Positions 1 to 42,162 of a stretch of DNA of 42,162 nt are shown here, piece by piece; position 1 is the first letter of the stretch, and each line of letters opens with the position of its first letter. The position numbers and the translations under genes are program-made. This stretch comes from Baffinella frigidus (Eukaryota > Cryptophyceae > Cryptomonadales > Baffinellaceae): positions 80,838 to 122,999 of the forward strand of contig MU646967.1 in assembly GCA_026770585.1 (NCBI GenBank). Direction: 5' to 3'. A model generated the notes under the pieces. That model was not told where the DNA came from. It ran no database searches and saw only the letters and a list, made by a program, of their open reading frames with translations.

Positions 1-57
1 GGGTGTAGGGTTTCGGGTGTAGGGTTTCGGGTGTAGGGTTTCGGGTGTAGGGTGTAC
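1..57. repeat. Degenerate telomere-like array, intron of the WD40 gene
   Basis: Repeats of GGGTGTAGGGTTTC fill the first 57 bases. On the minus (sense) strand of the WD40 gene this is C-rich. A GT donor on the minus strand at 57-56 starts this intron, which runs off the left edge. Confidence 0.75.
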
Positions 58-1016
58 AGCGTCGGAGTGCCCCTTGCGGCACAGCAGCTCCGCCCCGCTC
101 GCGTCCCAGAGCTTCCAGGTGCGGTCACGGCACCCTGCCACACAGATCGGTCCATTGGTTTTCGTGGCCCTGATTAACAAAAGCTCAGTACAAAAACTTG
201 TTGTTATCCGATATTTCGACCGGATCTTCGACCCAGCTCTTCCACGTGCGGTCGCGGCACCCTGCTCGGGGGATCCCAGCTCTGTCTCAGGCTGTTTCGG
301 CTCACCAGTTTGGTGAACCCCGGCTCTTTTCCACGCCAAAGTTGACGGGATTGTACCGCAGACCCAGCATGTCAACTTGAGAATAGTCGGTCACCCCGAG
401 TGAGGCAGAGCTAGGGATGGGCGAGTGCCGACAAGGTCACAAGCGCGGGCACCTCTTGGCAAGACACCAGCCTGCCATGTTCGGGAACAGCACGCGCACT
501 GACCTCCCGAGTTTGTGGAAAGCTGGGGCAAGCTTTGTTGGCATCAAGACCGTCTTCAAGTTTGGTTCTAGCGATCACCGAGGGAGTTTGCGAGTGGGGG
601 AAACTGAGGCCAGCAGGCTCCATGCAGGGTGTCAAAGACTTTTGACGATTCGGGAGCGGCGCCAACACCCCCAGGGTTTGCAGGTGGGCCAAACCTGAGG
701 CCAGCAGGCTGCCATCGGAGGACATCGCGACGCAGAGGACCGGAAGCGAGTGCCCCTGGTGGTGCTCCACGTTGAGCAAGCTGTCTCCCGTCAGGGCGTT
801 CACCACCCGCAGCCGCCCAGACGCCGTCCCGACCGCAATCGTCCCGCCGTTCCGTGGCGTGCCGGGCAGCGGGTCCTCCTCGGGCGGCGCCCAGCTCCGC
901 GCCAGCTGCGTGAGGCTTTTCCCAAGATCTCGCCCGAGCCCCATCAATGCGGACGCCGCGCTCCAGGGCTTCGCCGCCGCGCTCTCATCGGGAAGACGGG
1001 CGCGCACGGGCAGCAT
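58..1016 (-). CDS. WD40-repeat protein, 5' part (continues off the left edge)
   Basis: Two exons are visible on the minus strand: 1016-695 and 134-58. Joined, they give 133 codons in frame, ending at a phase-0 donor. The first 60 residues are Ala/Arg/Leu-rich with no clear domain. From about residue 63 the protein reads as beta-propeller blades: TASGRLRVVNALTGDSLLNV, then a GH-SDG-LLASG blade closed across the intron by CRDRTWKLWDASG. The GH dipeptide and the closing LWD are the WD40 signature; such propellers are protein-interaction scaffolds. The start is the first Met of the open frame, 105 bp from the divergent neighbour. The 560-bp intron holds family A element A1 and two echoes of its own flanking exons: 604-632 repeats the end of exon 1, and about 232-267 repeats the start of exon 2. 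The rest of the gene lies outside the window, so the subfamily cannot be assigned. Confidence 0.8.
271..419 (-). mobile_element. Family A element A1 (short TIR element in an intron)
   Basis: It starts with AGCTCTGTCTCAG and ends with GAGTGAGGCAGAGCTAGG, imperfect terminal inverted repeats. Inside is the near-palindrome GGCTCACCAGTTTGGTGAA, then CTCTTTTCC, AAGTTGACGG, GTACCGCA and GTCAACTTGAGAATAGTC. The same ordered motifs recur at least ten times in the window. It is about 150 bp with no coding capacity. Copies of neighbouring exon sequence lie on both sides of it. Confidence 0.8.
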
Positions 1017-1121
1017 GGTAGTCGGTGAAGGGGTGCAGGTTCAAAGCTGCGATCAAACCGGTCTGCAGGGCCGTGCTACACAAAAACCTTTTTTTCCGGG
1101 GTCGCATCTGTATCGGAGGCC
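1017..1121. promoter_or_regulatory. Putative bidirectional promoter / 5' leader interval
   Basis: Only about 105 bp separate the first Met of the minus-strand WD40 gene and the first Met of the plus-strand plastid-targeted gene, so both leaders and core promoters must overlap here unless transcription starts within coding sequence. No TATA box is evident. A T-run (CTTTTTTTCC) lies at about 1088-1098. This is inferred from gene arrangement alone. Confidence 0.4.
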
Positions 1122-3499: not shown

Positions 3500-6146
3500 A
3501 TGTCTCGGTGTCCAATGTCTGGGTGTCCAATGTCTATTGACCGACCGGGTCGAGTGCGGGGGGCGCAGGATCCCAACTCCGTGACGGTGCCTGAGGTTGT
3601 ACGGGGAGGGGACGAGGGGGGTGGGGGGAACGAGGGGGAGGCCGGGGGCGGGAAGAAGGAAAGCGCCTTCCCCGTGATGCTGCCGCAAGGGGAGGTGGAG
3701 AAGTGGGTGTTCCTGCAGCAGGGTATCGACGGTCGCATGGACCCTGCGCTCCTCAACCACGCCGTCCTCTCCGCCCTCGGGTCTGATTCCACCCCTAAGA
3801 TCACAAATCTCACCCTTAATATACCGAATTCCACCCTGAAGATAACAAACGTCACCCTTAATGCAACAAACTCCACCCTTGAGACAACACAGAAGTGTGT
3901 AACCTACACGGTCTGCAGCGGGAGGGTACCTAGGGAGAAGACTGAGCATGGGCCCTGCGCTCCTCAACTGCGCCGTCCTCTCCGCCCTCGGGTCCGCCCT
4001 CTTCCAGCTTTACAGCGACCACACGTGTTTTGTATTTATACTATTTTGTATTTAATACAGTGCAGTGCATTTAGGTATGTTTTTATGATAAAGAAGGTGC
4101 GAACGAGAGCGCGCCCCGCACGACTGATCCGGGCAGGTTTTGCTCACACAAAAATCGTGGGGGGCTGTCTCGTAACGCGTTGCTGCCGTCCGTGCAGGGT
4201 GGAGTGGCGGGCAGACGACTCCAACAAGTGAGAACCCCCGTGCACCCCCCCCCTCCGCCGCCCTTCTTTCGCCCCCACGCTCTCGGAATACTGTCTAGCT
4301 CTGCCTCACTCGGGTGACCAACAATCTTTAAGTTGACATGCTGGGTGTGCGGTTCAAATTCGTCAACTTTGGGGCGGGGACGAGCCCACGCCCACCACAT
4401 TGGTGAGTCCAAATGGACAGAGACAGAGGTAGATACTGTGTTGCTTTGAAAGCCGGGAATGGTGGTGCTCCGGAGGCAATCCGACGCTGCCAAGCTTGCA
4501 CGCGCCTCTTCAAAGCTTGCATCCCCGCCTCTTCAAATTTCTCCTCCCGAGGGTTAGCGTTTAGGGGTTAGCGTTCAGGGGTTAGCGTTCAGGGTTCCTG
4601 ATTTATGGGTTAGGGGTAAATCCTACATGAGTAGGGGTTCTAACCCACGGGCGTTTCCGCGCAGGGTGATTATAGACACGTCCAAGGTGGACAAGGAGCT
4701 GTGGGCATCCCTCGAGTGGGGCGCGCAAGGCTCTGTCCCCGACTTTGTCTTGGACCCCCGGGTCGCACGACAGCTCATGGTGCCTCCCAACACACGTCTG
4801 TTTCCCCGTTGGAAATGGGGGTGACGGCCACCTGGCCGGGCCCTCGGTGAGAGACTTTACGGTTGGCGTGTTTGTACGGGGGGGGGTCCGATTCCTGGCC
4901 GTCTCCTGGAACACACCCGCGCTCGTTTGAGGTTCGGAGGGCTGTTGAGAACCTGCGCGGTGGACACGGAGCTGTGGGCTTCGCTTGATTGGGAGGGGGA
5001 GGGGTCCGTGTCGGACTTGGTTTTGGACCCCTCACCGCCAGAGAGCAGCAGGCGTCACCCCCGTTTCCAACTGGCAAACAGTCGTCCTCTCTTGTTTGGC
5101 TGGTCGCCGTTCCACGCGAGGCGTTGAACGGCGAGCAAGCCTATATTTCAACTCTCCAATTTGTACATGTGAAGCATTCTTGGTGGGAATTGGAACCGTG
5201 CCTACCGCTTTTCGGTAGGGAACGTGACCAACTCTCATACAAACCTGGACGTGCGCCTGCAACCGACATTTAAATAGAGGACTTGCGCCGCCTCGAGTGG
5301 TTACCCCCATCTCATCGTCTATGCGCTTGACAACAATTACTTTACAAGGGCGTTTTTTACTTTACAAAGGTGCTTTACTTTACAGAGAGCCCCCCCTGTT
5401 GCAGGAAACGTTGGAGGAGAGGCTGCAGGATTGCAACCGCGAAGTCGAGGATCTGGATGCCGTCCTCGAGGCCCTCCTCGGACAGGTAACCCCAGAACCC
5501 TAATTCCGGGCCTGTATATCCCGAGGCGGGCCTGGCTATCCCGAGGTGGGCCTATCCAACCCGAAGCGGGCCCATCCCATGTCGTTCCTGATGCGAGCCT
5601 GCCCCATGCCGTTCCTTGTGGGGGCTGACGCAGGCGCTTGTCACGCCGAGGGCAGGCATGCAGCGGGCCGAAGCTTCAGGGTTCAGGGGTTGCAACCCAC
5701 GCACGCGATTGCAGCAGGCGCTTGGCATGCAGCGGGCAGAAGCTTCAAGTGGGGGTGGTTCGGATGATCTTGACCCTAAACCTTAAAGCCTGCACCCTAA
5801 AGCCTGCACCCTAAACCCTAAACCCTAAACCCTAAAACCTAAATCCTAAATCCTAAACCCTAAACCCTAAACCCTAAACCCTAACCCTAAACCCTAAACC
5901 CTAAACCATGGGGCGCTGTGTAGTCCAGCGGGCAGCATCCAACTTCATCGCATAAGCACTGAACCTCACCATCAGCTCTAAACCCTAAACACCGCACAGT
6001 AAGCACTAAACACAGACCCCCTCCCCATCCCCCCGGACCCCAAAATTCCTGGATGCTATCCCCTAACCCCTAAACCCTAAACCCTCAACCAGGAGGCGCT
6101 GCTCATGCAGCGGGCAGAAGCCAACCCAGACTTCCTCGCGCGCCAG
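3500..6146 (+). CDS. Unrecognised multi-exon gene, helical/coiled-coil product (incomplete model)
   Basis: Four exons join well: 4198-4227, 4665-4779, 5405-5485 and 6093-6146 (VEWRADDSN / VIIDTSKVDKELWASLEWG / ETLEERLQDCNREVEDLD / EALLMQRAEANPDFLARQ). An upstream exon is clear from its reading (EVEKWVFLQQGID, MDPALLNHAVLSALG), within an open frame at 3500-3790, but its start and donor are uncertain. I could not place what follows 6146 firmly. The product is charged and helical, with a short coiled coil at EERLQDCNREVEDLDAVLEA. I do not recognise the family. Echoes are abundant: 3948-4000 repeats about 3737-3787; 4944-5035 repeats about 4680-4757; 5653-5678, 5722-5748 and 5909-5950 are decayed copies of the 6093 exon start; and 6327-6360 repeats 6130-6170. 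Confidence 0.55.
3790..3892 (+). repeat. Short tandem repeat inserted between exon copies
   Basis: About four units of roughly 24 bp share CACCCTTAATRYAMCRAAY and CCACCCTKAAGATAACAAA. They lie between the 3737-3787 exon segment and its echo at 3948-4000. Confidence 0.65.
4294..4435 (+). mobile_element. Family A element A3
   Basis: It starts CTAGCTCTGCCTCACTCGGG and ends CAGAGACAGAGGTAG. Internal motifs are AAGTTGACATGCTGGGTGTG, CGTCAACTTTGGGGCGG and CACATTGGTGAGTCC. It lies in an intron of the unrecognised gene, in plus orientation. Confidence 0.8.
4780..5095. repeat. Inverted repeat flanking an exon echo
   Basis: CGTTGGAAATGGGGGTGACG at about 4806 pairs with CGTCACCCCCGTTTCCAAC at about 5053, and the pairing extends through ACACGTCTGTTTCC / GGCAAACAGTCGTCC. 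Between the arms lies a second, diverged copy of the ELWASLEWG exon (ELWASLDWE, 4970-5035). This looks like an element that captured or duplicated the exon end. Confidence 0.6.
5767..5910 (+). repeat. CCCTAAA telomere-like array
   Basis: Perfect and near-perfect CCCTAAA units, C-rich on the gene's sense strand, lie between echoes of the 6093 exon. Confidence 0.9.
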
Positions 6147-6628: not shown

Positions 6629-6699
6629 CGTACCAATGATGACTCGTTTTTTCTTTCCTGCTGCGAACGAAGCCTGCGCGGATTAGTTACCCGCCCTGG

Positions 6700-6821
6700 T
6701 ACAGGGGTACCTCGCTCATAAGAAAACGCCCCCCCCCCTAAGACCACCATAGGGCCCTGGGCATAGCCCTACTGTAGGGTCCTAGGTGGAGGCGCTTTCT
6801 TATGAGCGAGGTACCCCTGTG
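6700..6821. mobile_element. Family B MITE B1
   Basis: Long terminal inverted repeats (ACAGGGGTACCTCGCTCATA ... TATGAGCGAGGTACCCCTGT) extend through AAGAAA and a C-run, with GACCACCATAGGGCCCT / CTACTGTAGGGTCCTAG in the centre. About 122 bp. It is one of eight similar copies. Confidence 0.9.
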
Positions 6822-6948
6822 CACAATCGCCGTGTTTTTAGTCAACTGACGTACTCTCTGGCAGGCGTGCGTCGCATGGCTCCACCACTTCGGAGGGTAT
6901 TGATCGCTGGTCAAGTCATGGTCAAACCACCTCGAGAGCAACAGCTGT

Positions 6949-7070
6949 GCAGGGGTACCTCCTCTAATAAGGAGCCGCGCCCCCCCCTAGGACCACCGTA
7001 GGGCCAAAAGTCTCGGCCTACTGTAGGGTCCTGGGAGGGTGCGCCTCCTTATGGGCGAGATAGCCATGTA
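6949..7070. mobile_element. Family B MITE B2 (diverged ends)
   Basis: Same architecture as B1 but with altered termini: GCAGGGGTACCTCCTCTAAT and CTTATGGGCGAGATAGCCAT. The centre is GGACCACCGTAGGGCC / GGCCTACTGTAGGGTCCT. It is only about 130 bp from B1. Confidence 0.8.
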
Positions 7071-7496
7071 GTCGAACACGGCCTCCTCGGGTGGGAATAC
7101 ATCTGTGGTCAAACAAGGCTTCTTCCGGATGAAAGACATGGTGGCCATCTTCGTTGTGATATGACTGCACGCGGATTTTCTCTCTGATGCGTCGCATGGC
7201 TGCACTACAGGGTTGAAGGGGTCCGATTCTGTACAGCAGGCCTTTTCCTAGCATCCGAGCGCAGGACCTAGGGCGGTCCTAGAGGCTCCTAGCAACAGGC
7301 CTAACGTAGGACCGTACATGGGTTACTCGCGTTCCAGAGATTCTAGTGCGCATCCCCCATCCCCACGCGTGCCACCAACCTGCCTGTGTCCGGCGACATC
7401 GCAGCAAGGCCCCCATCAAACTCCGCAACTGTGTGTGCCTGCACCTCCCACTTCAATTTTAGGTCCTTTGCCCGGTCGCCTCCTCTACGAGCGCTA
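7071..7496. other. Intergenic, no gene recognised
   Basis: No exon is supported. A partial family B core is visible at about 7263-7315 (GACCTAGGGCGGTCCTAG, CCTAACGTAGGACC). Confidence 0.4.
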
Positions 7497-7614
7497 CATA
7501 AGTACCTCGCTCATAAGAAACCGCCCCCCCCCTAGGACCACCATAGGGTGGTCCTAGGTGGCCTACTGTAGGGTCCCAGGTGGGGTCAGTTTCTTATGAG
7601 CGAGGTACCCCCTG
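7497..7614. mobile_element. Family B MITE B3
   Basis: GTACCTCGCTCATAAGAAAC opens it and GTTTCTTATGAGCGAGGTAC closes it. The core is GGACCACCATAGGGTGGTCC. The 5' ACAGGG end is degraded to ACATAA. Confidence 0.85.
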
Positions 7615-8150
7615 CACCCGGCCATCCCCAAGACCAACGGCCAGCATCCTCCGCAGCACTTGCAGCTCCCTTCCGTCTTGACGCGGAAGCAGAGAGAGAA
7701 GTGTGTGTGTGTGAGAGAGGGAGAGAGGGAGGATGATAATCCTTTACTCCATTTAGGTCCTTTCCTTCAGGTCCTTGAGGTTTTAATTTCTCCCAACATA
7801 TGCCAACGACACGCCCTTCCGTAGAAAGCACTGCAAAGAAAGCATGTTTGCTTTCGGGACGCGTTTCGCTTTCCAGTGCAGAGGCTCGTGAAGAGGGGAT
7901 ACAGGGTGGTTCTCTTGGGGTGTTTGGAGGTAAAAAAGGAAAAAAAGTCCACAAACTTCCTCTAAAGTCATCTGTTGACATTTGAAAAATCAACTTGTCA
8001 ACTTTTCGAGAATCTCGCACGGCTGGGCGGGGGCTTGCGCGCGAAAGGGGACAGAAGGAGAGGGTTCTTGAGTGCAAGAACCGTCTTGCAAGATGTCGAC
8101 GATCAATGTTAGGACCCAGCCCTTCCGATCCCCTGATCCCCTCTCCACAG

Positions 8151-8204
8151 GTGCCTCACCATCGCTCGGTAGGCCAGCAAGCGGAAATCCGCCTTCGACG
8201 ATGA
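8151..8204 (+). other. Possible terminal exon overlapping the DRG start (speculative)
   Basis: After an acceptor CCTCTCCACAG, a phase-0 frame reads [17 protein letters not shown] then TGA. That TGA overlaps the DRG start codon (ATGA at 8201-8204). It could be the last exon of the upstream unrecognised gene, whose last firm exon ends phase 0 at 6146. Nothing else supports it, and it may simply be DRG leader. Confidence 0.15.
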
Positions 8205-11200
8205 ACCGTGATGCTCCGCAGGAAAAGATCCAGGCGATTGAGCTGGAAATGGCCCGGACCCAGAAGAACAAAGCTACTGAGGTGCCCTCCCTCTCCTGCC
8301 CCATCAGCATCATCAGACCAACGCAGGAGAGGGAGAGGGAGGGCACAGTAGGTAGTCTGGACGAGACCTGACACGCTCGGAACGCGCAGGGCCACTTCGG
8401 CGTGATGAAAGCGAAGATCGCCAAGCTGCGCACACAACTCCTCGAGCCCGCAGCTGGTCAGGCGAACGCGGGGACGGGGTTTGACGTGGTGAAGTACGGG
8501 GACTCGCGCGTCGCAATCATCGGCTTCCCCTCGGTACCACCTAGCTCTCCTCACTCGGGTTCACCGACTCTTCTCAAGTCCCCGTGCTGCGTCTGCAGTA
8601 CAAATCCATCAAATTTGGAGCGGAAATGAGCCCGGGCTCGCCCAATTGGTGCTCCCAAATAGACTGCGATAGAGCTAGGATCCCAGAAGTCCATCCCGCC
8701 CGCACCGCCCTTCCCTCTCCTCGCGTTCTCCTACCCACACAGCGGGCTGCTCCCAAGGGATTTTCTGGTCAGATTTGAGGCATTTCCGATATGTTATTCG
8801 TAGGAACCCCCCTATGTCCCTACGCTATTGTGTACCGTAGGGCTCTACGTCTTGTCGCTTATGGGTTATTCACGAAAACCCTTAAAGTCCGCTCTGTAGA
8901 CTGTTACGCCACTAGGACTACAGCGTGGGAGTGGTGAGGGTGCTGCGGGGTGAGGGGGCGGACGGCGTTCAGGCCCCTCGCGCCGCGCACCAACCCCAGA
9001 ACGTCCACTTGAGAATAGTCAGTCAACCCTCGCCAAGCAGGTGGGCAAGTCCACCGCGCTGGCGCACCTCACTTTGACGGAGTCGGAGAGTCCTAGTGTC
9101 GGGACTCTTGCTAGGAGCTCACACCCCGCGCCCTGCGCTCTAACCTCGTCAACTTTGGAGCGGACTCTGTCAACTTTGGACTGCGTCCCAGGGAGGAGCG
9201 GTAGCGCCTGTCGGACTATTGACAAGTTGACGTGGTGGGTGTGCGGTACGAATGCAGGTGGGCAAGTCGACAGCGCTGGCGCAACTGACGGGGACGGAGT
9301 CGGAGGCGGCCGCCTACGAGTTCACCACGCTCACCTGCATCCCGGTATCATAAGTCAACTCCTCGCGACTTTCATAAGTCAACGCCTCGTGACTGATCAC
9401 ACCTTGTTCCGCGAACAACACCTACTCAGATTAGTCGTCGTCCGCGTGCAGCCCCTGCCCAGTGCAGTGCAGAGAAAGATGGAGGTCTTACCTCACATAA
9501 TTTATTACTTGATTTTTTTCCTGCCATGTCGAAATTATGTTAATATATAAATGCTTTACTATTACCAGTATGATCTAATTGTGAAGTGATTTTTGTTGGC
9601 AGTAAGACATGAATTAATACGTTCTCTCGGGTAAGGTAGGGGTTATGGTTTAGGGGTCAGCGGCCAGGAGTTAGGGGTGAGTTTGACTTCCGACGGCGGG
9701 TGTGGCATCGCTTTGTACTCCCAGGCTGCAGCTTGCGGGCGGGTTCTGAACCCTCAACCCTCAACCCCAGGTGCGGGCGTTGTCTAATCCCTCAACCCTG
9801 AACCCCAGCTTGCGGGCGGTATCTAACCATCTCTGCCTGCACCGCAGGGGATCATCCACTACAAGGGCACCAAGATCCAGCTGCTCGATCTTCCCGGGAT
9901 TATTGAGGGCGCGGCGTCAGGCAAGGGCCGCGGCCGACAGGTTCGTGCCCCTGTCTATTTGGGCCAACCCATTTGGTGAGCCAAGGCTCTTTTCCGCTCC
10001 AAAGTTGACGGATTTGCACCACGCAACCAGCACGTCGACTTGAGGATAGTCAGGCAACCGGACTGGGGCAGAGCGTCAGGAAAGGGCCGCGGGCGACAGG
10101 GGCGTTGGCCGTGTGCCCGCGCCCAGCATCCTAGCTCTGCCTCACTTGGTTAGATTGACAGTGGCTGACTTCAAGGCGACCGTGTTGGCATCAACACATC
10201 GCTCTCTCTCTCTCGCGCGCTCGCGCGCTCTCTTTCTCTCTCTCTCTCTCACACACACACACGAAAAAAAACGTTTGTCTCTCCAGAGAGACCTGCACCA
10301 ATACCTCTCCCTTTCGTGGTCAGGTTATTTACCTCTCCCTTTCACGTACAGGTTATTGCTGTGGCGAAGTCAGCGGATTTGATCCTGATGTTCTTGGACG
10401 CGACGAAACCGGACGCGCACCGCGCCGCTCTCGAGAAGGAGCTCGAGACCACTGGTGCTGTTACCGAATCCCGACTTTCATCCCGACTACCGAGTATTTA
10501 ATTAAAATACTCGCTACCATGGGGAATAGTTTTCTCCCCTTCAGGAATTAGGCGGATGGCTCCAATTCTCTACAGACGGACAGTATTTCAAATCAATGTC
10601 TGCCGCGATTAAATTACGGGTTGGCGTTGAGGATTTAGTCACCACAGGTACAGGGTTGAGGGTTGTGGGTCTGAGAGTTTTGGGGTGTAGGGTAGGGTGT
10701 TGGGTTTAGGTCGAAAAGGAGATCGAGACCACTGGTGCTGGGATTTGGGTGTAGGGGTTAGGGATGAGGGAAGATGGTTCATTGTTGACGCTTGCTATCA
10801 CATCTACTGGGTTTAGCGTCCAGACCACAGGTACAGGGTTGAGGGTGGAGGGTTTAGACAGGGTCAGCGGTATCTCAAATACAGGAAACTCGTGGCTCCG
10901 ATCTCACAAACCGCGTCACGACGACGCGGTGATGCTCACGCGGTTTGCTGAAGTGTCTCTCCCGCAGGCATCCGGCTGAACCGCCCTGAGCAACCTCATA
11001 ACCTGCTGGTATTAATAAAGGTGTCTCTCCCGTAGGCATCCGGCTGAACCGCCCGCCGCCAGACATCTACTTCAGGAAAAAGAAGACGGGTACACCCTAC
11101 ACCCTCAACCCTCAACCCTCAACCCTCACCCCTCAACCCTAAACCCTGAACCCTGAACCCCAAACCCAAAACCCTAAACCCTAAACCCTAAACCNNNNNN

Positions 11201-17928: not shown

Positions 17929-17989
17929 TCCCGACGAGACCCACCCTCCGAGAGTCAGCATCGCCTGTCTCAAGTCCCTGGATTGGAAG

Positions 17990-32367: not shown

Positions 32368-33545
32368 GAGATCCCGAGGGGGCTTGCTCCTGTCGATGCT
32401 GGTGGAACTTCTGGCAACAAGTCGCAGTTAGGCATAGCCAGAGTGACTTGTCCCCAGATGACTTCAGGCCTGTCCCTGGATGGGCCCTACGGGGACCCGC
32501 AAGCTCTAACTCTCTGACTTCTTCCCATCACCCACCTGAGAGCTCACCTTGCGCGAGCCCCCCCTCGGGAGGCGCGTTCCCACCTGCATGGGATTAGCCC
32601 TAACTTTCCCGCGCCCCTCGAGCACGGGCCCGCTTCGGGACCCCGCCTCAGGACTGGTCCTGAGGCGGGCCCTAGCGGTCCTGGACCTGTCACGGACAAG
32701 ATGGCGGCAAGAGCCTGTCCACTCTTTGAGCTACACGAGTTGGTACTCCCCAGAGGCGTCAAGAAGCTGCAGGATGAGCCGCGCAGGGTAGTGTGTGGCG
32801 AACGAGTACCAACGAAGGCTGCCACTCAGGTGTGTTCACCAATACACTGGTAGCCCACACACCAGTCGGTTTCAATAATTCAAAAAAAGCTGGCAGGTGT
32901 AGGGCTGGCCACCATATGTCCCCACCTGCGGAGGCTTCCGCTTGTCGCTCTTACACTCTTTTATTCCACACACATCGAAACCAATACAACCCCCCCGCGG
33001 GGTTTGTTGCACGTCAGGGTCCAGAAAAGCCTCGTCTGTTTTTCCTGTTGCGAACGAATGGAAGTCTCCACACTCTTTGATTCCACACACACGCACACAC
33101 CTCGAGGCGGGCCTATCCCAGGCCTCTACTTAGAGGGTCCCCGCTCCTAAGGCGGGCCTCTGCCCCCTTCTAGCTAGGCCCGCCTTAGGGTCTACAGGGG
33201 TACCTCACTCATACGAAAGCCCCCCCCCACCCAGGACCCCCACCACAACAGGGCCGTAGGCATAGCCCTACTGTAGGGTCCTAGAGGGAGGCGCTTTCTT
33301 ATGAGTGACGTACCCCTGTAGGGTCCAGAGGGGTGGGGTGCTTGCGCAGCCTCAGCACACACTCAAACCTAGTCTGAATAGGGGGCAAACATGCCCTGCC
33401 CGCCATGTTGGTATCAATCAACGCCTCCATCCGCCCCCTCATGTTGCGAGGCGTCACCCCCCTCCCTGGCGCCTGAGCCTCAGGATAACCTGCTGCTCGC
33501 GGAGCCTCAAGCACAACCTGTTCTTCGAGAGCCTCACAACCTGTG
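32368..33545. other. Intergenic stretch with hairpin and repeats
   Basis: A perfect 13-bp hairpin (CCCGCCTCAGGAC, TG, then its complement) lies at 32642-32669. A duplicated ACTCTTTKATTCCACACACA occurs at about 32953 and 33071. GGCGGGCCT repeats occur at 33100-33180. An AGCCTCARGAYAACCTG repeat occurs at 33477-33545. No gene is supported. Confidence 0.5.
33192..33320. mobile_element. Family B MITE B8
   Basis: It runs from CTACAGGGGTACCTCACTCA to TTATGAGTGACGTACCCCTG, TA. TAGGGTC precedes the left end, and the same heptamer is formed at the right end (TA plus GGGTC), a possible target duplication longer than TA. Confidence 0.9.
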
Positions 33546-36500
33546 TTACCCCCGGTGCTTCCGGTGCCGGGCGACAAGCTCTGCGAGATGAGACTCTGGA
33601 ACCGCCTTCCGCAGAAGCCTGCCGCGATCCCAAAACGTTGTTTTAGTACACATTGTATAGCATTCTGGCGTTTGAGTAAGAATTGAAAAACAATGGCGTT
33701 GTAGCAACATTGTTTAGCGTTTCAGCACCAGCTGTAGCGTTGTTAGCACCAGTTTTAGCGTTCTAGCACCGTCAACTTTTGCCGCCCTAACTTTTGCCGC
33801 TCTCGATTTTTTTTTCCCTTTCAGAAGGAAGTCTCGAAAGTGCAACCCTAAACCCTGAACCCTAAACCCTGGACCCTGAACCCTGAACCTTAACCCCCAA
33901 CCCCTAAGCCCTAACCCCTAAGCCCTAACCCCTAAGCCCTAAACTGTAAACCCTGACCCGAAACCACGTGTTTCACACCTTGTTCCAAACGACGTTTACT
34001 TCAATACCACGCTAGTTCATATGTGGAAATTTCAAGACTTGAGTGGGGCGGGCAGGTCCCAGGTTTAGGGTTTAGGATTTAGGGGCGGGGGGGGTACGGA
34101 TGCTGAAGCAGCTCTGCGGCTGTGGCGCGCTTGGCCGGGTCCACCGTCAGACACCCTGGGTTGCGGATTCGGAGTTAGGGAGTAGGTGGTTTCGGGTTTC
34201 GGGTTTCGGGTTTCGGGTTTCGGGTTCGGATATCTCGTTTCGGGTTTCGGGTTTGACAGAGTACGTAAGCTGACCTCACCTCACCTCGTTCGCCTATCAT
34301 CGTGGGATGCTGAAAGGATTCGGGTTTCGGATTTCAGGTTTCGGGGTGTTTCAGGTTTCGAATTTCGGGTTTCGGGTTTAGTGTTTAGTGCTTACGGTTC
34401 AGGGTTTGTGAGGGAGAAGGGAGGAAAGGGTTTTGGGGTTAGGGGTTAGGAGAGTACGTGCGTAGAAGTCCATGAAGGTGCCCGAGTACTTTGACATCTG
34501 CTTCAACTTCGGAGTTCCCTGCTCGGAATTGGAGCGGTTAGGAATGTCATTTCGAATGCCACAAGTGAAACTACGAGAAACGCAGTTTAGATGCACACTC
34601 GTTGGACCCAACAGGCGCACAGCAAAAAATAACTTTTTGAAAACGTAGAGGTGGGAGGGCACCTTGGTAGCAATGAGGTAGAGTGCGCGAAGCGGCTGCT
34701 CCTTGAGCCAGGGAGGCTCGCCCTCTGCCATCTCTATCAGCAGGATCCCCAGGCTCCATATGTCCACCTGAGGTTTCGGTTTCGGGTTTCGGGTTTCGGA
34801 TTCAGGGTTAAGGACGCAGGGTATCGGGTATCGGGACCTTCTGCTCGTACTTGATGACACAGACATGTTTAGTGTTCATTTTTTGGGTTTTCGTGTTTCG
34901 TTTTCAGGGTTTCTGGTTTCTGGTTTCTGGTTTCGGGTTCAGGGCCACACAGTGGACTTCGAAGGCATTTGCGACCGAACGCCCGGTTGAAACGGCATTT
35001 GATTCAATGTCCGTGTACGAGCAATCCAACAATTAGTGCCACGAAACTAAATAGACCGTTCTGCGAAGCCCACTGTGTGGTTCCTACTTCCTAATCACGG
35101 AAGGTTTAAATAGGGTGCTTCAGCGTTCTCAAGTGGTGTGTGGGAATGCATCTTCTGGCCGTACTTCATCCAGCGGGCCAGCTTCGGCGCTATCCAGTAC
35201 AGGTTTCAGTGCTTAGGTTTTCGGGTTTACTGTTCCAGGTTCAGAGCGTAGGGTCTCGGGTGTGTGGTTCAGGAGGAGGGTTCAGGAGGATGGGTGGGGA
35301 GGATGGTTCAGGAGGAGAGGACCTGCTGGTCGTACTTCTCGCCGCGGACCAGCTCCGGGGCCATCCAGTACGGCCATTGTTACTGTTTACTTTTCGTATT
35401 TCGTGTTTCATATTTCGTGTTTAATCTTGAACCGTTCTGCGACGCCCACCGTGTGGATACGGTGCAGCTCATACATTATGCGGTGGTTCTGGTTCAGGAG
35501 GAGAAGAGCACCTTCTGGTCGTACTTCATGCCGCGGACCAGCTCCGGGGCCATCCAGTAGGGTGTTCCAACCTGCCAAAAGTCACCTTTGCTGTTGAGTT
35601 ATGAAAACTGCCGCGAGGGTGGAGTGTTCCAACCTGTCTACCGCGGGGTGTGCCTGTGAGTTCTGCAACAAATCTCCGGTTTTCGGGTGTATGGTTCCGG
35701 GTTTCGGGTCTCTGGTTTCTGGTTTCTGGTTTCGTGTTTCGTGTTTCGTGTTTCGTGTTTCTGGTTCAGTGAGCGCACCATTGGATGGCGCTGGGTCATC
35801 TCCAAGAGCTAAAGTGTTGAGTGTTTAGCTAGTGAGGAGCTACGAGCGCTGCGCGCGTGTATGCAAGGAAGGGAACGACAGACCATTGAATGGCGCTGGG
35901 TCTTCTCCTGAGTGAGCTGTACGCAGAACCCGAAGTCGGCCATCTTTACCTCTCCCCGCGAGTTCACCAGCACGTTGTCCGACTGTTGGGATTTACGGTT
36001 CAGGTTTTGGGGTTAGGGTTTTGGGTTATGGGTTTTGGGTTTGGGGTTTTGGGTCTCAAGTTTCGGGTTTTGGGTTTTGGGTTTTGGGCTTTGGGTTTCG
36101 GGTTTTCGGGGTTTCGGGTTTTCGGGTTTTCGGGTTTTCGGGTTTTCTTTTTTTCGGGGTTTCGGGGTTTTGGGGGTCGGGGCGCCGTAGGCGGCACCTT
36201 GATATCGCGGTGTATCCTCGCGAGCGAGTGGAGGAACGCGATCGCGCCCAGCGACCCTTTCAGGAACCTGTGTTACGGTTGGGGGTTCAGGGTTTATAGT
36301 TTAGAGATTAATGCGCCAATGGATCCTGAGGCTAAGATAGCAGATTTCACTCTTGAGATGGCAGGAAACAGCGCTTGAAGTTGAAAGTGATTTCGCAAGC
36401 AATTTGTGGCGACCAGGATCCACTCAAGAGTCTCGCCCAGATCAAAGGTCCGGGGGGGCGTTGGGGGGTAGGGGTCTGTGTTTAAGGTTTCGTGTTCCGG

Positions 36501-39071
36501 GTTTCAGGGTCTCGGGTCTCGGGTTTAGGGTTTAGAGCTTGGGCACAGCCTCGGTGGACGTTCATACATGGCGGCCGTTTCGGTTGTAATGAAGGTCTCT
36601 CTCTCTCTATATATATATATATCTCTTGGGTTTAGGGCGTGATACCCCGCCATCTCAGCCTCGGAGAGCTCGAGTTTCTTGGTCTGGTAGGCTTGCAGCA
36701 GGTTCGTGATCGAGCCTCCGTCCATGTATTCCATCACGACCTTCATCATGCGAATTTATTATTTAGTTTTAGTCTTAATTCAGTCTTAATTTAGATTAAA
36801 TCCGTTGACATTGGAAACCGTTAAAACCAAATTAAGAAAAAACGTGTAGTAACTTGAATTCCCGGAAAGTTTAAACTAAATTAGTTGCTTGGTCTGGCAG
36901 GCTTGCAGCAGGTTCGTGATCGAGCCTCCGTCCATGCATTCCATCACGACCTTCATCATGGAAATTTATCATTTAGCTTTGATCATTTCCGATCCAGCAT
37001 GCAAAGGAACACGATAACTAATCCCAGCAGGCATTGACCAGAGCGTTGACCAGAGATCAGTGGGTACAGGTGTTCCCAGTAAATCAACTCTAAGTGGCAC
37101 GGGAGTTCCCAGAAAAGCAACTCTCCAAACAACGGGATGCGTAGGGATTTCGTGAAAACCCCGTAAGGCAACAATCCGTAGACCCTACGGTAGGCAATCC
37201 GTAGGGACATAGGGATATTCCTGGGGCTATCCTGACGGAAAGTCGCTAAATTTCGGCCAAAAAATCCCTTTGTAGCCAGTGGTTTTTCTCACCCAGAAGC
37301 AGCGTTCGAACATGAAACGAACATAAAGCAACTCTGAGTGGCACGGGTTTTCCAAGTGGAGCGACTCGCTGTCTCTGTGTAAAGCGACTATGCAGGTTTC
37401 GCTCACCCAGAGGCAGCGCTCGAACATGTAGCTCTCGATGTATCCCACCACGTTCGGGTGCGCCTGCTCACAGTTTGACCACTTAGCTCTCTGCTGGGTT
37501 CAGGGAATGCGGATGCGAGATATGGGGTTTGGGTTTAGGATTTAGGGTTAAGGGATTAGGGTCTGGGGTTCAGGGTTTAGGGTTTAGGTTTTAGGGTTTG
37601 AGGTTTGAGATTTAGGGTTTAGGGTTTAGGGTTTAGGGTTTAGGGTTTAGGGTTTAGGGTTTAGGGTTTAGGGTTTAGGGTTTAGGGTTTGGGATTTCTT
37701 GTTTAGGGTTTAGGGTTTAGGGTTTCGGGTTTAGATTCTATGGGTTAGGGTTTAGGGTTCAGGGTTTAGGGTTTAGGAGGGGGCTGCTAGGCGCCGAGGT
37801 GCGTATCATTACGATTTCGTTCTCGAGGGCAGGGGGGTCCGTGATCTTCGAGAGTGCAAGTTTCTTCACCCTAAACCCTCCTCCCAAACACAACACATTG
37901 TGTTTCGGAGGAGCTTTTTTTCACAGACGCTGTACTGGGTACACCCGTGCCACTCGAGTTGCTTTACTCTGTGCACTCGTCAAACGGACTATGCTCAAGT
38001 TGACAGCCTGGGTTGATGAGTACAAATCCGTCAACTTTGGAGCGGAAAAGAGACTGAGGTGCGCATCATCGCAATCTCGTTCTGGAGCCTGAACCCCCCC
38101 AAAATCCTTAACACTAAACCCTAGAGAGTATGGTCCAGGGTCAACCCCTAAACCCTAGAGATGATGGTTTATGGATTATGGATCAGGGTGTAAGGTTTAG
38201 CCACCGAAGTACGCATCATCGCGATCTCGTTCTGGAGGGCAGGGAGGTCCGTTGTCTTCGAGAGCGCGAGTTTCTTGACTGCCACGCTCCTGTGCGCTTT
38301 CAGCTCGCGCGCCTGATGTAGGGTATAGGTTTTAGAGTTCAGGATTAATTGATCAACCGATGCTCTGTCAGCTTGCACGCCTGCGAACCCGATCCCACCT
38401 CAGATGTTCCCTGAATAAATGATGAATTGTTTCCCAAGTAAATAGCGCGCGCTAACTATGTACTTAGGGGCCTGAAACCCTCCTTAATAGATTAAACAGG
38501 CGGAGGTGCGTGGTCTTGGAGAGCGCTCTGGGGGTTGCGGTTTCAGGTTTCAGGGTTTTGCGTGCAGGTTTCAGGGCTTGGGGGGGTTGGTTTAGGGGAT
38601 TGGGTTTCGGGGTTTCGGTTTAGGGGTTACGGGTGTACGGGTCTAGGGGTTTGGGTTGAAGGGTTTAAGGTGTGGGGTTCCGGGTGTAGGGTTTAGCGTT
38701 TAGGGATTAGGGTTTCGGGTTTAGGGGTTCGACCAGATAGATGGTGCCCATCCCGCCCTGCCCGATCGCCTTGGGCGAAATCTCGTACTTGGTCGCCTGC
38801 GTCATGGTTCAGGGTTTATTGAGCGTGTTGAGCGTGCCGACGAGGACTCAGTTTCGTTTTTAGTTTTCAGGATTCAGGGCTTAGGCTGTAACTTCAGAGG
38901 AAAAGGGGTTTACTGTAAAGCAGATAGCCCCCCCCTTTTTCGGGTTCTCATGTCCCCCCACACACACAACGGGTGTCGGGTTTCGAGTTTCGGGTTCGCA
39001 CGGCTTCGGGCGTCGGGTTTCATGTCTCAGGTGGCGGGGCGACGCACAGGGACGTCGTGGAGAAGAGAGAC

Positions 39072-39125
<54 letters not shown>

Positions 39126-40790
39126 GACGGCGAGGCGCGCCTCGAGGGACGCCTCGCACTACTTGGCACACTATTCCTGAGTTGCCATGCTGGGGCCCCG
39201 GTACAAATCCGTCAACTTTGAAGCGGAAACGAGGCTGGTGTCACCAAGTAGGAGAAGACAAATAGACTGGGGCAGAGCGGGGCGGCACCGGGTCGTCGCG
39301 GAGGAACGTGACTGCCAGACGCGCCTCGAGGCAAGCCTCGCATTGGGAGGGGAGCGCTGCCTCTCACCCCAGGCTATGTTCTGCTCCAACGTCGACGAAT
39401 TTGTACCACGAAGCCAGCATGTCAACTTACGAATAGTCAGCCAACCCGCCCGAACCCCGAACCCTACACCCTGAACCCTGGTGAGACGCACCGGGTCGTC
39501 GTGGAGGAAGGTGACAGCCAGGCGTGCCTCGAGGGAAGCCTCCGATTGGGAGGGCAGCGCTGGCTCGCACCCCTGCTCCATCTGGAACCTGGTTGCGTAC
39601 AGGTTGTGGGGATTAGGGGGTAGGGTTTACTGAAACCTGGTTTGGCGTTTGGTGATGAGGGGTTAGGTTTCGGGGTTGGGGTTTGGGGGTTAGGGTCTCG
39701 CACCCCTGCTCTATCTGGAAGCTGCCACTGAGAGAAACGCGCGTTTGATAGGTTACTGTGAGACGAGACAGGTTATGGGGCACGAGCGTTAGGGTTTGGG
39801 GTGTGGGCGATAGGCCTAGTCGGGTGTGTGGGTTAAGGGCTAAAGCTCCCAGAACCGCTCAGTTTGATCCTGGGACTGGGGGGCAGCGCTGGCTCGCACC
39901 CTTGCCCTATCTGGAACCTGTGTTACAGAGAGAAACATGCGTCAGGTTCAGGTTCAAGAGAAGAGAACATGGCGTTTGGGTACAGCTCCCATGACCGCTC
40001 AGTTCAAGTCTCGGGCTGCGAGTGCAGCGCTGGCTCGCACCGTTGCTCCATCTAAACCCTAAACCCTAAACCCTAAACCGTCTGAGAGGGGCTCACAACC
40101 TGAGGATGTCGATAATGGCGTCGCCGTTGGCTTGCGCCTCCTCCCGCGTGATCTTCGCGCGCTCTAGCAGCTCCGCCCATCCAGGCGGGAGCCCCTTGAA
40201 CCCGGTCGCTGCTCGGTACGAAACGGCCGATTTGTTCAGAGTGAATAACCCGTTAGCGCATTTAAGCGCTCTAGCAGCTCCGCCCATCCAGGCGGAAGCC
40301 CCTTGAAATCGGTCGCTGATCGGTACGAAACGGCCGATTTGTTCAGAGTGAATAACCCGTTAGCGCATTTAAGCGCTCTAGCAGCTCCGCACATCCAGGC
40401 GGGAGCCCCCGGAAACCCGTCGCTGCCGGGTACCAAACGGCCGTTTTTTTCAGAGTGAACAAGCCGTTAGGGATTAAGCGCTCTAGCAGCTCCGTCCACC
40501 CGGGCGAGAGCCCCCGGAAACCGGTCGCTGCACGGTACGATACAGTCCATTTGTTCACAATGTATAACCCTTGAGCGTGGCAGCATCCATATCCAAAGAA
40601 CCGGACGGGAGCCCCCCTAACGATTTAATCTGAAACTGAATTGGTATTGGCGATACCTGAGGAGACGGGGTTCGGGTTGCAGGTTTCGGTTCTAGAGTTT
40701 GGGGGCTCGCAACCTGAGGAGACGTCGGCCTGGACGTGGACGCGGTGCTCGAAGTTGAACGGCGCCGATATCTTCATCTCCCGCGCCCCG
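33546..40790 (-). CDS. p21-activated kinase (PAK/STE20 family) with CRIB domain
   Basis: A Ser/Thr kinase regulated by Rac/Cdc42/Rop GTPases, acting on actin and polarity. Minus-strand exons: 40790-40714, 40208-40100, 39588-39492, 38796-38734, 38312-38205, 37463-37407, 36740-36646, 36267-36198, 35982-35884, 35571-35512, 34767-34663, 34518-34458, 34155-34098, 33618-33546. They join to 376 residues plus stop, entering in phase 2 (first exon missing). [24 protein letters not shown], then [10 protein letters not shown]. Kinase: [12 protein letters not shown] (Gly loop), SVAVKKL (Lys), [71 protein letters not shown]. Ser replaces the usual activation-loop Thr (RHSMVGTP against the family STMVGTP). 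Tail: [15 protein letters not shown]. Thirteen introns, eight phase 0. Nearly every exon has at least one echo. Confidence 0.95.
33842..33955 (+). repeat. CCCTAAA/CCCTGAA array on the antisense strand of the PAK gene
   Basis: Heptamers CCCTGAA, CCCTAAA and CCCTAAG are C-rich on plus, so G-rich on the sense strand of the last PAK intron. It is an exception to the orientation bias. Confidence 0.8.
34945..35082. mobile_element. Short TIR element in the PAK intron
   Basis: CCACACAGTGGACTTCGAAG at 34945 and CTGCGAAGCCCACTGTGTGG at about 35062 are inverted repeats around about 95 bp. A related end (CTGCGACGCCCACCGTGTGG) is at about 35434. Confidence 0.6.
35143..35511 (-). repeat. Two echoes of the PAK activation-segment exon
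   Basis: 35143-35200 and 35320-35377 repeat most of the exon at 35571-35512 (plus-strand core TCGTACTTCWTSCCGCGGAC, CAGCTCCGGGGCCATCCAGTA). The nearer copy still reads [17 protein letters not shown]. The farther one reads [11 protein letters not shown] third shorter relative, TCTGCTCGTACTTGATGACA, lies at about 34838. Only 35512-35571 has the complete GTPYWMAPE with acceptor and donor. Confidence 0.88.
35765..35810 (-). repeat. Echo of the PAK DFG-exon end
   Basis: ACCATTGGATGGCGCTGGGT with CATCTCC mirrors ACCATTGAATGGCGCTGGGT at 35882, including the donor-side bases. Confidence 0.8.
36000..36175 (-). repeat. TTTTGGG/TTTCGGG block array (PAK intron)
   Basis: Blocks of GGGTTTTGGG and GGGGTTTTCGGGTTTTCGG fill the intron between the HRD and SDN exons. 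C-rich on the sense strand. Confidence 0.85.
36895..36962 (-). repeat. Echo of the PAK hinge exon (VVMEYMDGG)
   Basis: GGTCTGGCAGGCTTGCAGCA through GACCTTCATCATGG repeats 36679-36748 with about three differences (TGCATT for TGTATT). In the echo the Tyr of MEYMDGG becomes Cys. Confidence 0.88.
37117..37285. mobile_element. Family C element C4 (PAK intron)
   Basis: AACGGGATGCGTAGGGATTT to AAATCCCTTTGTAGCCAGTG, with CAATCCGTAGACCC and TACGGTAGGCAATCCG inside. Confidence 0.8.
37295..37345 (-). repeat. Echo of the [11 protein letters not shown] exon end
   Basis: TTTCTCACCCAGAAGCAGCG and TTCGAACATG, followed by ACATAAAGCAACTCTGAGTG, mirror 37398-37425 and flanking intron, placed directly beyond element C4. 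Confidence 0.8.
37510..37782 (-). repeat. TTTAGGG telomere-like array (PAK intron)
   Basis: About 20 TTTAGGG heptamers, with a perfect run at 37612-37690; C-rich on the sense strand of PAK. Confidence 0.92.
37793..38092 (-). repeat. Two echoes of the PAK VAVKKL exon with family A element A14
   Basis: 37793-37865 and 38056-38092 repeat the exon at 38205-38312 (plus-strand cores GAGGTGCGYATCATYRCRAT and CTCGTTCT). A truncated family A element (37990-38062; TCAAGTTGACAGCCTGGGTT, GTACAAATCCGTCAACTTTG) joins directly to the second echo. Confidence 0.85.
39066..39122. repeat. GA microsatellite
   Basis: About 25 GA dinucleotides interrupt an echo of the 39492-39588 PAK exon (CGTCGTGGAGAAGAGAGAC before, GTGACGGCGAGGCGCGCCTC after). 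Confidence 0.95.
39120..40055 (-). repeat. Multiple echoes of the PAK linker exon with family A pieces
   Basis: Besides the functional exon 39492-39588, copies lie at 39046-39165 (split by the GA run), 39278-39372, 39697-39722, 39876-39922 and 40014-40052. Shared plus-strand cores are CGGGTCGTCGYGGAGGAAS, GCGCCTCGAGGSAAGCCTC and GCAGCGCTGGCTCGCACCC. Family A pieces lie at 39180-39275 and 39374-39446, in opposite orientations. Confidence 0.85.
40159..40575 (-). repeat. Tandem array of four ~107-bp units carrying the PAK CRIB-extension exon start
   Basis: Units start at about 40159, 40265, 40372 and 40475. Each has GCGCTCTAGCAGCTCCGYCC, the codons for [12 protein letters not shown], a GGTCGCTGCYCGGTACGA acceptor zone, and spacer ATTTGTTCAGAGTGAATAAC. 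Only the 40159 unit runs on into [17 protein letters not shown]. The others end in a shared spacer. Confidence 0.92.
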
Positions 40791-41275
40791 CTGCACACCA
40801 CACTGTCTTACATACCCAAAGACGTTTTCACACAGCAGGCTACCAAGGGATTTTCGGCCAAAATCGGGCCGACTTTCAGTTAACTTATCCGTAGGAACCC
40901 CCATGTCCCTACGGGTTGCCTACCGTAGGGTCGTAGGTCTTATCGTTTAAGGGTTATTCGACGTTAAAGGGTTATTCGCCGACATCTTCATCTCCCGAGG
41001 CCCGCTGCCAGGAGGAAACACGTTTATTTCGTCTCACAGATCTGGCGGGTCGGGGCTCGTTTTCGCTCTTAAGTTGACGGGTGTGTACCACGCGCCCAGC
41101 ACGTCAACGTGTGGATAGTCTGTGTGTCTCGCCGATATCGTCATCTCCCACGACCCGCTGCACACCACAGTGTGTTATTCAACAGAAAGCGAGACTTTTG
41201 CGAATGTCAACATGGCGTGAGATAGGCCCGCCTCGGGCCACCGAGATCTTCATCCACCACGGCACGCAGTGTTAG
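40714..41275 (-). repeat. Echoes of the PAK CRIB exon 5' edge with elements C5 and A16
   Basis: The acceptor and first codons (plus-strand core GCCGAYATCTTCATCTCCCG) recur at 40761-40805 (functional), 40978-41014, 41131-41170 and, weakly, 41239-41275. Family C element C5 (40830-40970) separates the first two and family A element A16 (41049-41128) the next two, so echo and element alternate. Confidence 0.85.
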
Positions 41276-42162
41276 AGCGGTGTTCTCGTGTTGAGTGTTA
41301 GAGCGGTGTTCTCAGCTGTTGGCCACGGACCAACCAAGAAGATGAAAGCATGTGTCCACTTTTCAGCCTCTTGCACAGGAGGATGCGAGGGTTGTTTTGC
41401 TCCGGCGCATAACCCCCCTTCCCTATGTTTTCACGAACACATGTCCATTGCGACGCGAACGCCAACCCTGCAACCCAAATCCCATCCCTAAACCCTGAAC
41501 CCTACACCCAACCCCCTAGACCCTGAACCCCAAACCCTAAACCCCCAAACCCGCATTCCACTCAAAGTGACAACCATAAGCTAACCCCGAAACGCTACAC
41601 CCTGAACCCGCATTGGAACCCCCAAGCCCCCCCGAAAGGAGGCATTTCACCCTAAACCCTAAACACTCAACCCTCAACCCGAAACCCGAAACACCAAACC
41701 CTAAAACCTAAACGCTCCTCGGGGCAGCCGCACCACGCGGCGACGACGCTGACGACGCACCTCAAACCGCCCCTCGCATATCCTCTCTGAAACAAACTCT
41801 ACCAGATGTCCCCAGGTGCTACCAGGAACTGGCACACTCCGAGCGTCCATCTAAGGTCAGAGCCCCCCCCGCACTGCGCGACGACAACCGTAGCTTCAAA
41901 CCCTCAACGATAATCCCAAATTCCTCACCCATAATTCCCAATCTCAAATACCTCCTCTGGGGGCAGCCACACCTCGCACCCCCCCCTCCTCACCCCTCCT
42001 CCTCTTCCCCCCCCCCTCCGACGCTGCGCAGAGGCGCCCCCCTGCTCCTCTCTGTTCCCTAAACACCAAGCCCTAAAACCCCAATTCCTAAACCCGTATT
42101 CATAATTCCTGAACCCTGCACCCCCCAGGGGCAGCCGCACCCCCCCCCCCCCCCCCCCCCCC
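41276..42162. other. Right-edge stretch: telomere-like repeats, possible exon copies, poly-C end
   Basis: GTTAGAGCGGTGTTCTC is tandemly duplicated at 41273-41311. CCCTAAA/CCCGAAA units run through 41480-41715. GGGGCAGCCRCACC recurs three times (about 41720, 41958, 42127). On the minus strand this reads VRLP or VWLPPEE and could be echoes of a further upstream exon, perhaps of PAK. The window ends in more than 20 C, which may be an assembly edge artefact. Confidence 0.45.

Follow-up and report, generated by a model that had tools for sequence, protein, structure and literature searches.

Exon-edge duplications around extra DNA in introns of the cryptophyte Baffinella frigidus suggest a repair-like route of intron growth

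In human, proximal duplications with filler DNA have been described at repaired breaks, occasionally including splice sites or parts of exons and with an inverted case among them (Pace et al. 2009, PMC2671141). Small tandem duplications arise when CST/Pol alpha-primase fills in 3' overhangs (Schimmel et al. 2021, PMC8355091). Two reviewed routes to intron gain, namely a staggered break closed with inserted DNA and the AGGT tandem genomic duplication (PMC3443670), as well as the introners of aquatic protists (Gozashti et al. 2022, PMC9860276), are the closest further systems. In the present study we analysed a stretch of 42,162 nucleotides from the Arctic alga Baffinella frigidus (assembly GCA_026770585.1, contig MU646967.1, positions 80,838 to 122,999; hereafter the window), in which partial copies of exon edges, here termed exon echoes, lie inside the adjoining introns. 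Our results suggest that a repair-like process lengthens introns by duplicating exon edges. To our knowledge, intron growth has been less studied than intron gain or loss.

Similar to the human repair duplications, the echoes are short, close to their source (spacers of 34-645 bp in separated copies, the longer ones in multi-echo introns holding further echoes) and accompanied by filler. However, the donors of the human set are almost all intronic or non-coding whereas the Baffinella duplications are at exon edges, and all Baffinella matches with a score of at least 18 are in sense orientation and affect about half of the examined introns. With the fill-in duplications of Schimmel et al. the echoes share the small size, the overhang-like length and the same orientation of the direct repeats, but those copies are in tandem, while the Baffinella copies are mostly at least 34 bp apart and tied to splice junctions. 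The staggered-break gain reviewed in PMC3443670 likewise combines a break, inserted DNA and direct repeats at the edges; in that case, short repeats flank new introns, whereas in Baffinella long duplications extend over a pre-existing splice site, and an old intron gains length. As in the AGGT model of the same review, a duplicated exon segment with a splice-like motif turns intronic, but no Baffinella echo is located at an intron end and no new intron was detected. Finally, as with introners, repetitive DNA expands the intron complement of an aquatic protist; introners, however, are whole elements creating introns, with 3-9 bp repeats in the families showing them (PMC9860276), while fragments and arrays enlarge existing introns in Baffinella. 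The terms 'Baffinella' and 'cryptophy' are absent from the main text of PMC9860276, and 'intron' and 'splice' from that of the Baffinella genome paper (PMC9756366), which puts the genome at 534.5 Mb and its repeat share at 41.1%, and reports a size 6.1-fold that of Guillardia. Judged by titles and abstracts, no description of exon echoes in Baffinella or cryptophytes was found among the open-licence papers listed by full-text searches.

By its sequence, the window is nuclear DNA of B. frigidus, since the INO1 and DRG proteins it encodes match transcriptome-supported Baffinella records exactly. The INO1 model (20 exons, 19140-28419, plus strand) yields a 538-residue translation identical to P0001, a record named for Baffinella frigidus that represents a cluster of three member sequences, one source being a transcriptome. 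The DRG model (16 exons, 8093-15845) yields 429 residues identical to P0121, a single-sequence cluster found in NCBI and the MMETSP transcriptome, from which the boundaries of the last DRG exons, including the end of exon 14, were set. A PAK-type kinase gene on the minus strand was modelled with 13 exons, positioned via relatives and a partial Baffinella record. Together, INO1, DRG and PAK have 49 exons with a total of 3972 bp and 46 introns with a total of 19760 bp; from 8093 to 40790, intron density is high (19 introns in 538 codons in INO1). All results refer to this one 42-kb window, these three modelled genes and one draft assembly, too narrow a basis for the initial label 'genome-wide'.

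The initial annotation of the window had listed 15 examples of echoes, which we divided into 20 pairs, with 13233 and 13366 paired with the exon end (12976, 12983). A direct repeat was present in all 20, with a score of 22-83, whereas 200 letter shuffles of each pair peaked at 12-16. Alignment of whole exons to introns returned sense matches with a score of at least 16 in 24 of 92 pairs of an exon and its adjacent intron, but in none of 2162 non-adjacent pairs; in antisense orientation, these numbers were 4 of 92 and 1 of 2162 (Fisher P 2e-35 for adjacent versus non-adjacent and 5e-5 for sense versus antisense). With a score of at least 18, 23 sense and no antisense matches remained among the 92 adjacent pairs, and none among the 2162 others on both strands. 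Thus, the echoes exist at the coordinates first reported. Echoes were found in introns 2, 6, 7, 12, 15 and 19 of INO1, introns 3, 5, 6, 8, 10, 11, 12 and 14 of DRG and introns 1, 2, 3, 4, 5, 6, 9 and 10 of PAK, that is, in 22 of 46 introns (48%), so that the earlier statement that nearly every intron carries such a scar was too strong. For the pair 14748/15022 the repeat is real, but the bases past the second copy are intronic in the DRG protein record. Echoes beyond the first list include 10431/10711, 13836-13920/14115-14257, 25022/25129, 37281/37395, 35777/35882, 38243/38502, 34836/35510, several around 39117-40060, and 40159-40577. Near direct repeats at 102/229, 3735/3946, 4686/4959 and 5713/6091 also resemble exon echoes; they reside in unmodelled genes and are outside the counts.

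For an alignment list, exon queries were cut to 130 bp and extended without gaps, by which the intronic part is underestimated for INO1 intron 2 and PAK intron 10. Of the 34 copies on the list, a single split echo contributes two, one per half, and a plain 107-bp tandem array in PAK intron 1 contributes three. The copies are given below for each gene; element A denotes a sequence of about 140 bp resembling a miniature inverted-repeat transposable element (MITE), with 17 merged matches in the window.

INO1, plus strand:
20643-20714, plus strand: true copy of the intron 2/exon 3 edge, 72 bp, 90% identity to its echo
20437-20508, plus strand: echo of the exon 3 start with AG; the spacer 20509-20642 is element A, truncated at its 3' end
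22574-22603, plus strand: echo of the exon 6 end with GT (true copy 22362-22391; 30 bp, 87%)
23114-23168, plus strand: echo of the exon 7 end and 12 intronic bases (true copy 22981-23035; 55 bp, 95%)
25129-25168, plus strand: echo of the exon 12 end (true copy 25022-25061; 40 bp, 80%)
26667-26745, plus strand: echo of the exon 15 end (true copy 26454-26532; 79 bp, 95%)
28188-28223, plus strand: echo of the exon 20 start with AG (true copy 28264-28299; 36 bp, 89%)

By eye, an extra short copy of the exon 3 start is seen at about 20283-20320, which suggests a nested second event at this exon. The spacer of the exon 7 echo is mostly a minisatellite with a 32-bp period.

DRG, plus strand:
9037-9088, plus strand: echo of the exon 4 start with AG (true copy 9254-9305; 52 bp, 87%)
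10066-10105, plus strand: echo of the exon 5 end, GT lost (true copy 9907-9946; 40 bp, 82%)
10711-10740, plus strand: echo of the exon 6 end (true copy 10431-10460; 30 bp, 93%)
10953-10986, plus strand: echo of the exon 7 start and 15 intronic bases (true copy 11021-11054; 34 bp, 97%)
11768-11833, plus strand: echo of the exon 8 end, GT lost (true copy 11461-11526; 66 bp, 77%)
12597-12652, plus strand: echo of the exon 11 start with AG (true copy 12941-12996; 56 bp, 88%)
13233-13301, plus strand: echo 1 of the exon 11 end (true copy 12976-13044; 69 bp, 94%)
13369-13434, plus strand: echo 2 of the exon 11 end, GT lost (66 bp, 88%, one gap)
14115-14257, plus strand: echo of the exon 12 end in two aligned pieces (true copy 13836-13920)
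15010-15048, plus strand: echo of the exon 14 end, GT lost (true copy 14737-14774)

Element A fragments are located on either side of the exon 4 echo, at 8995-9029 (plus) and 9214-9249 (minus), and the spacer of the exon 5 echo is element A without its 5' end. A short telomere-like array (14155-14199) seems to interrupt the exon 12 echo, and the spacer of the exon 14 echo is largely a degenerate telomere-like array. A second DRG transcriptome record, P0122, lacks about 30 residues over the exon 5-6 junction (9899-10396), by an assembly error or unusual splicing.

PAK, minus strand:
40979-41008 and 41130-41177, minus strand: two echoes of the exon 1 start, with an element A fragment (41054-41123) between them
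40208-40577, minus strand: 107-bp tandem array in intron 1 that includes the exon 2 start, a plain tandem duplication with no filler
39697-39724, 39869-39920 and 40006-40060, minus strand: three echoes of the exon 3 start, from alignment
39285-39370 and 39117-39155, minus strand: two echoes of the exon 3 end, the second without a splice site
38502-38526, minus strand: interior piece of exon 5 in the upstream intron, without a splice site (25 bp, 88%)
38053-38087 and 37788-37869, minus strand: two echoes of the exon 5 end, GT lost in the latter, with an element A fragment between
37281-37314, minus strand: echo of the exon 6 end and 12 intronic bases (34 bp, 88%)
36883-36980, minus strand: echo of the exon 7 start and 30 intronic bases (true copy 36673-36770; 98 bp, 93%)
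35777-35803, minus strand: echo of the exon 9 end (27 bp, 93%)
35310-35373, 35148-35199 and 34836-34864, minus strand: three echoes of the exon 10 end, GT lost in the second, from alignment

The element A fragments adjoining the two PAK exon 3 end echoes are in opposite orientation.

Most units can be written as T-X-T, in which T is a duplication of 25-98 bp of an exon edge, either an exon end plus donor or an acceptor plus exon start, X is at least 34 bp of other DNA, and the copy contiguous with the rest of the exon is in use, the other remaining in the intron as a relic. The aligned copies accordingly measure 25-98 bp, the PAK intron 1 rows 98-130. In 31 of 34 copies the splice site appropriate to the side is present: upstream introns carry exon starts and downstream introns exon ends. 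The remaining three copies are pieces that include no splice site, and none shows the wrong edge, a geometry which random pasting would not give. From the splice site, the exon part extends over 19-82 bp, in no case including the whole exon, while the intron part covers 1-30 bp in the separated copies that hold a splice site; the medians per copy are 45.5 exonic versus 5 intronic bases. These medians refer to a set of 30 rows (the list minus the three PAK intron 1 rows and the three rows without a splice site, plus two PAK exon 1 echoes), for which lengths, identities and intronic parts were transcribed by hand, DRG intron 14 being entered as 2 where the alignment list gives 1. In most copies, including several with 93-95% identity, homology does not reach beyond the splice site or its close vicinity. 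It clearly passes the dinucleotide in INO1 intron 7 (12 of 12 bases), DRG intron 6 (15 bases with one change) and PAK intron 6 (30 intronic bases with four changes); the copy in PAK intron 10 has about 20 intronic bases. Edge-extension scores were no test of homology, as introns share arrays and the 95th percentiles of the control (unrelated intron starts and ends), 22 and 29, equalled or exceeded every echo score; therefore, alignments alone were used. The copies are thus colinear exon-edge duplications flanking extra DNA, in agreement with the proposal that the process duplicates DNA across the splice junction. The accompanying statement that they keep the splice dinucleotide holds for AG, present in 14 of 14 acceptor-type copies, but not for GT, present in only 13 of 19 donor-type copies, and two of the 35 rows of this count, which takes in PAK intron 1 and the PAK exon 1 echoes, are without a splice site. 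Retention in 27 of 33 is about the level expected from neutral decay (0.83 per dinucleotide by our estimate).

Exon and echo differed at 56/515, 40/518 and 104/526 sites of codon positions 1, 2 and 3, respectively (0.109, 0.077 and 0.198; 35 rows); 90 of the changes were synonymous, 103 were non-synonymous and 6 were stop changes. As the DRG intron 12 row aligns poorly (58 gap columns), the count was repeated without it, resulting in 46/489, 34/491 and 93/499 (0.094, 0.069 and 0.186) with 80 synonymous, 88 non-synonymous and 4 stop changes; when each exon edge was represented by a single copy and PAK intron 1 was left out, the differences were 29/339, 26/340 and 59/345. These values fit an echo drifting at about 0.07-0.09 per site at all positions, to which the free third positions of the functional exon are added. 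No coding constraint on the copies was apparent from the codon-position rates and the 4 stops remaining without the DRG intron 12 row, and none of the DRG echoes is included in the DRG protein record P0121. The codon pattern speaks against misassembly and against a use of the copies as coding exons, though it is no proof that none of the echoes was ever used. It likewise supports the earlier suggestion that one exon copy stays functional, as the decay of the other fits neutrality.

The duplications are located at exon edges, a specificity that was not part of the initial finding. Under a position-blind T-X-T model that allows for masking and for the double decay of intron pairs, 2.8 intron-only duplications should be detectable for each edge event. 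Arrays (6004 of 19760 intron bases) were masked in this model as well as in a repeat scan and an intron-segment control; element A and other dispersed elements were left unmasked in the latter. The masked window contains 50 near direct repeats. A modelled exon is contained in 32 of these (some rows overlap, e.g. three for PAK intron 1), and ten lie in unmodelled DNA, some of them being dispersed elements and others probably exon edges of further genes. The other eight are intron-intron pairs, of which, by our reading, four match echo to echo, one matches element A to itself, and three are unexplained. Three intron-only versus 24 edge events depart from the position-blind ratio with P 1e-11 (P 1e-8 if the eight sense hits of the control are taken instead). 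No excess of direct repeats occurred in intron segments (8 sense versus 12 antisense of 165 tests) or in unmodelled stretches (14 versus 20 of 213 tests), and the 24 of 92 for exons differ from the 8 of 165 for intron segments with Fisher P 2e-6. The breakpoints were modelled by drawing both ends of T from the exon plus w bp per side, with survivors crossing one splice site. At w=10, the median intron part is 6 (observed 5) with 64% at no more than 7 bp (observed 70%), compared to 15 and 25% at w=30 and 22 and 17% at w=100. Faster decay of intronic sequence could shorten the intronic parts, yet copies with at least 90% identity show the same bias: in ten of them, a subset of our choice that omits one PAK exon 1 echo of 90.0%, the mean normalised intronic share is 0.27 versus 0.5 expected (P 0.005). 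Selection for short intronic parts would, by our reasoning, not be expected, because longer parts are harmless in donor-type copies and keep the native branch region in acceptor-type copies. Survivorship alone was rejected as the cause of the exon specificity since, by reasoning, the expected proportion of intron-only to edge events would be the same with or without it.

The initial annotation had each event either lengthening an existing intron or creating a new one. The former is borne out, as the spare copy and the spacer lie inside the intron. A recent birth was not seen: the mean junction repeat at intron ends is 3.37 bp versus 3.40 in shuffled exon pairings, giving no sign of an intron-specific repeat, and none of the 34 aligned copies is flush with an intron end, the position demanded by the AGGT model, in which the two copies would hold both splice sites of the intron. 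Phase 0 accounts for 37 of 46 introns, 23 of 46 downstream exons start with GT, and 15 of 46 junctions are AG|GT. Recursive splicing, by which T would be kept since AG|GT lets the insert splice out, was ruled out by a hand count; exons with a donor-type echo end with AG in 8 of 15 cases versus 29 of 46 overall, and those with an acceptor-type echo begin with GT in 4 of 9 versus 23 of 46.

By eye, the spacers are heterogeneous and consist of element A, whole or in pieces, telomere-like heptad arrays, the 32-bp minisatellite, an AT-rich palindrome and unclassified DNA; at the echoes, element A occurs only as fragments. Hence, the transposon-like elements, minisatellites and telomere-like arrays first described between the copies apply to many spacers, while several are unclassified. 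No shared element with constant ends was recognised among the spacers by eye. One intact element A copy (4295) is flanked by a 7-bp repeat, and the eight matches beside echoes all appear truncated at one or both ends at various cut points (by eye). An 18-base piece of element A has six matches in bacterial records, which were taken as chance and left unused.

275-425, 1907-2053, 4295-4428, 8540-8679, 17988-18120 and 21066-21182: longer copies of element A, in DRG or INO1 introns or unmodelled DNA
6699-6820, 6947-7069, 7495-7611, 28889-29011, 29309-29432 and about 33192-33321: another short element, which has inverted ends (GGGGTACCTCGCTCATAAGAAA-like, by eye) and lies outside INO1, DRG and PAK

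A large inverted repeat lies between genes at about 17380-17740 and 18590-19030 (by eye). On the sense strand, most of the telomere-like arrays are of the C-rich type (CCCTAAA), with 17 C-rich versus 3 G-rich of the 20 INO1, DRG and PAK introns that have more of one exact heptamer (P 0.0026), and the bias holds in the minus-strand gene, too; it could stem from splicing constraint (TTTAG|G acceptors, branch-like CTAAAC) or from RNA-borne spread. The window has two ten-N gaps, at about 11195 and 31047, and because both fall within such arrays, the arrays may have been shortened in the assembly. No Rfam match was obtained in the window at gathering scores, and a search of viral contigs with INO1 gave no relative.

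On the reading that we favour, a staggered break or a pair of opposed nicks would open at or near an exon, fill-in would duplicate the overhangs, and the ends would be joined around captured filler such as element A fragments, telomere-like repeats, minisatellite or other DNA. Duplications within an exon or spanning a whole one would wreck the message and be lost, while those with one splice site would place X and the spare copy in the intron at little cost and persist, so that existing introns would grow. We give this sequence of staggered breaks at exons, fill-in, closure with captured DNA and filtering by splicing about an even chance of being correct. The proposal that breaks are filled in and closed with foreign DNA fits the mixed, often truncated filler. 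A number of points weigh against it. Position-blind breaks predict the 2.8 intron-only duplications per edge event mentioned above, and three unexplained intron-only pairs were found; breaks would have to fall mainly in exons and the adjoining 10 bp or so, a restriction that was added to fit rather than explained. Four weak antisense matches (score 16-17) occur among the 92 adjacent pairs, and PAK intron 1 has no filler. Human donors are mainly intronic, with 278 intron donors versus 8 including exon (PMC2671141), from which the exon restriction in Baffinella departs. Moreover, fill-in and end-joining are inferred, and the modelling covered three genes. Two further routes were rejected. Tandem duplication by a fork that stalls and jumps back does not agree with homology stopping at the donor in most copies. 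If an insertion were followed by copying from the intact allele, element A should be intact on the echo side; by eye, INO1 intron 2 and DRG intron 5 agree with this and the PAK examples disagree.

Target-primed reverse transcription can leave a long, variable target duplication. Insertion by an integration or copying machinery that is guided to exons or splice junctions by nascent RNA, splicing complexes or open chromatin and leaves such duplications is a possibility to which we assign a rather low probability: the near absence of intron-only events, the breakpoints fitting a zone of the exon +/-10 bp and the short intronic parts even in the ten copies with at least 90% identity (P 0.005) argue for it, but the spacers have no constant-ended element in common by eye (an integrase or a poly-A tract was not searched for), and element A beside echoes is cut at varied points. 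Ordinary tandem duplication of exon edge and intron, with later indels in the second intron part, is exactly what PAK intron 1 shows with its 107-bp units of intron and exon parts, and the 30 intronic bases in PAK intron 6 and about 20 in PAK intron 10 are compatible with it; as a general explanation it is unlikely, since homology mostly ends a few bases from the splice site, also in several 93-95% copies, and intron-only direct duplications are not in excess. The very long target-site duplications by a DNA transposon, element A or others, that were initially considered are weakened to a clearly improbable explanation. Element A is indeed beside or between the copies at several echoes, and its 5' end abuts the copy in INO1 intron 2; however, one intact copy of it shows a 7-bp repeat and the eight echo-side copies look truncated (by eye), and most spacers are not element A. 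Instead of a short duplication of constant length around an intact element, the duplications are 25-98 bp, variable, and placed around fragments, arrays or unclassified DNA. That the copies are retained as alternative or regulatory exons is highly improbable: AG is present in 14 of 14 acceptor-type copies, but the codon pattern, including 4 stop codons, fits a neutral echo beside a constrained exon, GT is lost in 6 of 19 donor-type copies, and the DRG protein record is without that gene's echoes. We consider it no less improbable that alleles or paralogues were stitched together in the assembly; this is a draft with two ten-N runs in the window, within telomere-like arrays, but the ungapped echoes differ by 3-23% from their exons in a codon-structured manner and with colinear geometry in three genes.

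Irrespective of the mechanism, 22 of 46 introns bear the decaying scar of an enlarging event, by which length, age and position of such events become directly measurable. Their near absence inside introns points to damage or insertion directed to exons, or to an undescribed selection on intron edges. It might be speculated, albeit tentatively and with the odds against it, that a mutational process is aimed at exons, in which breaks or insertions, perhaps under the guidance of transcription or splicing, fall within exons and some 10 bp around them, each survivor lengthening an intron. If true, such a long-acting exon-aimed process could have contributed to the long introns of the large Baffinella genome.

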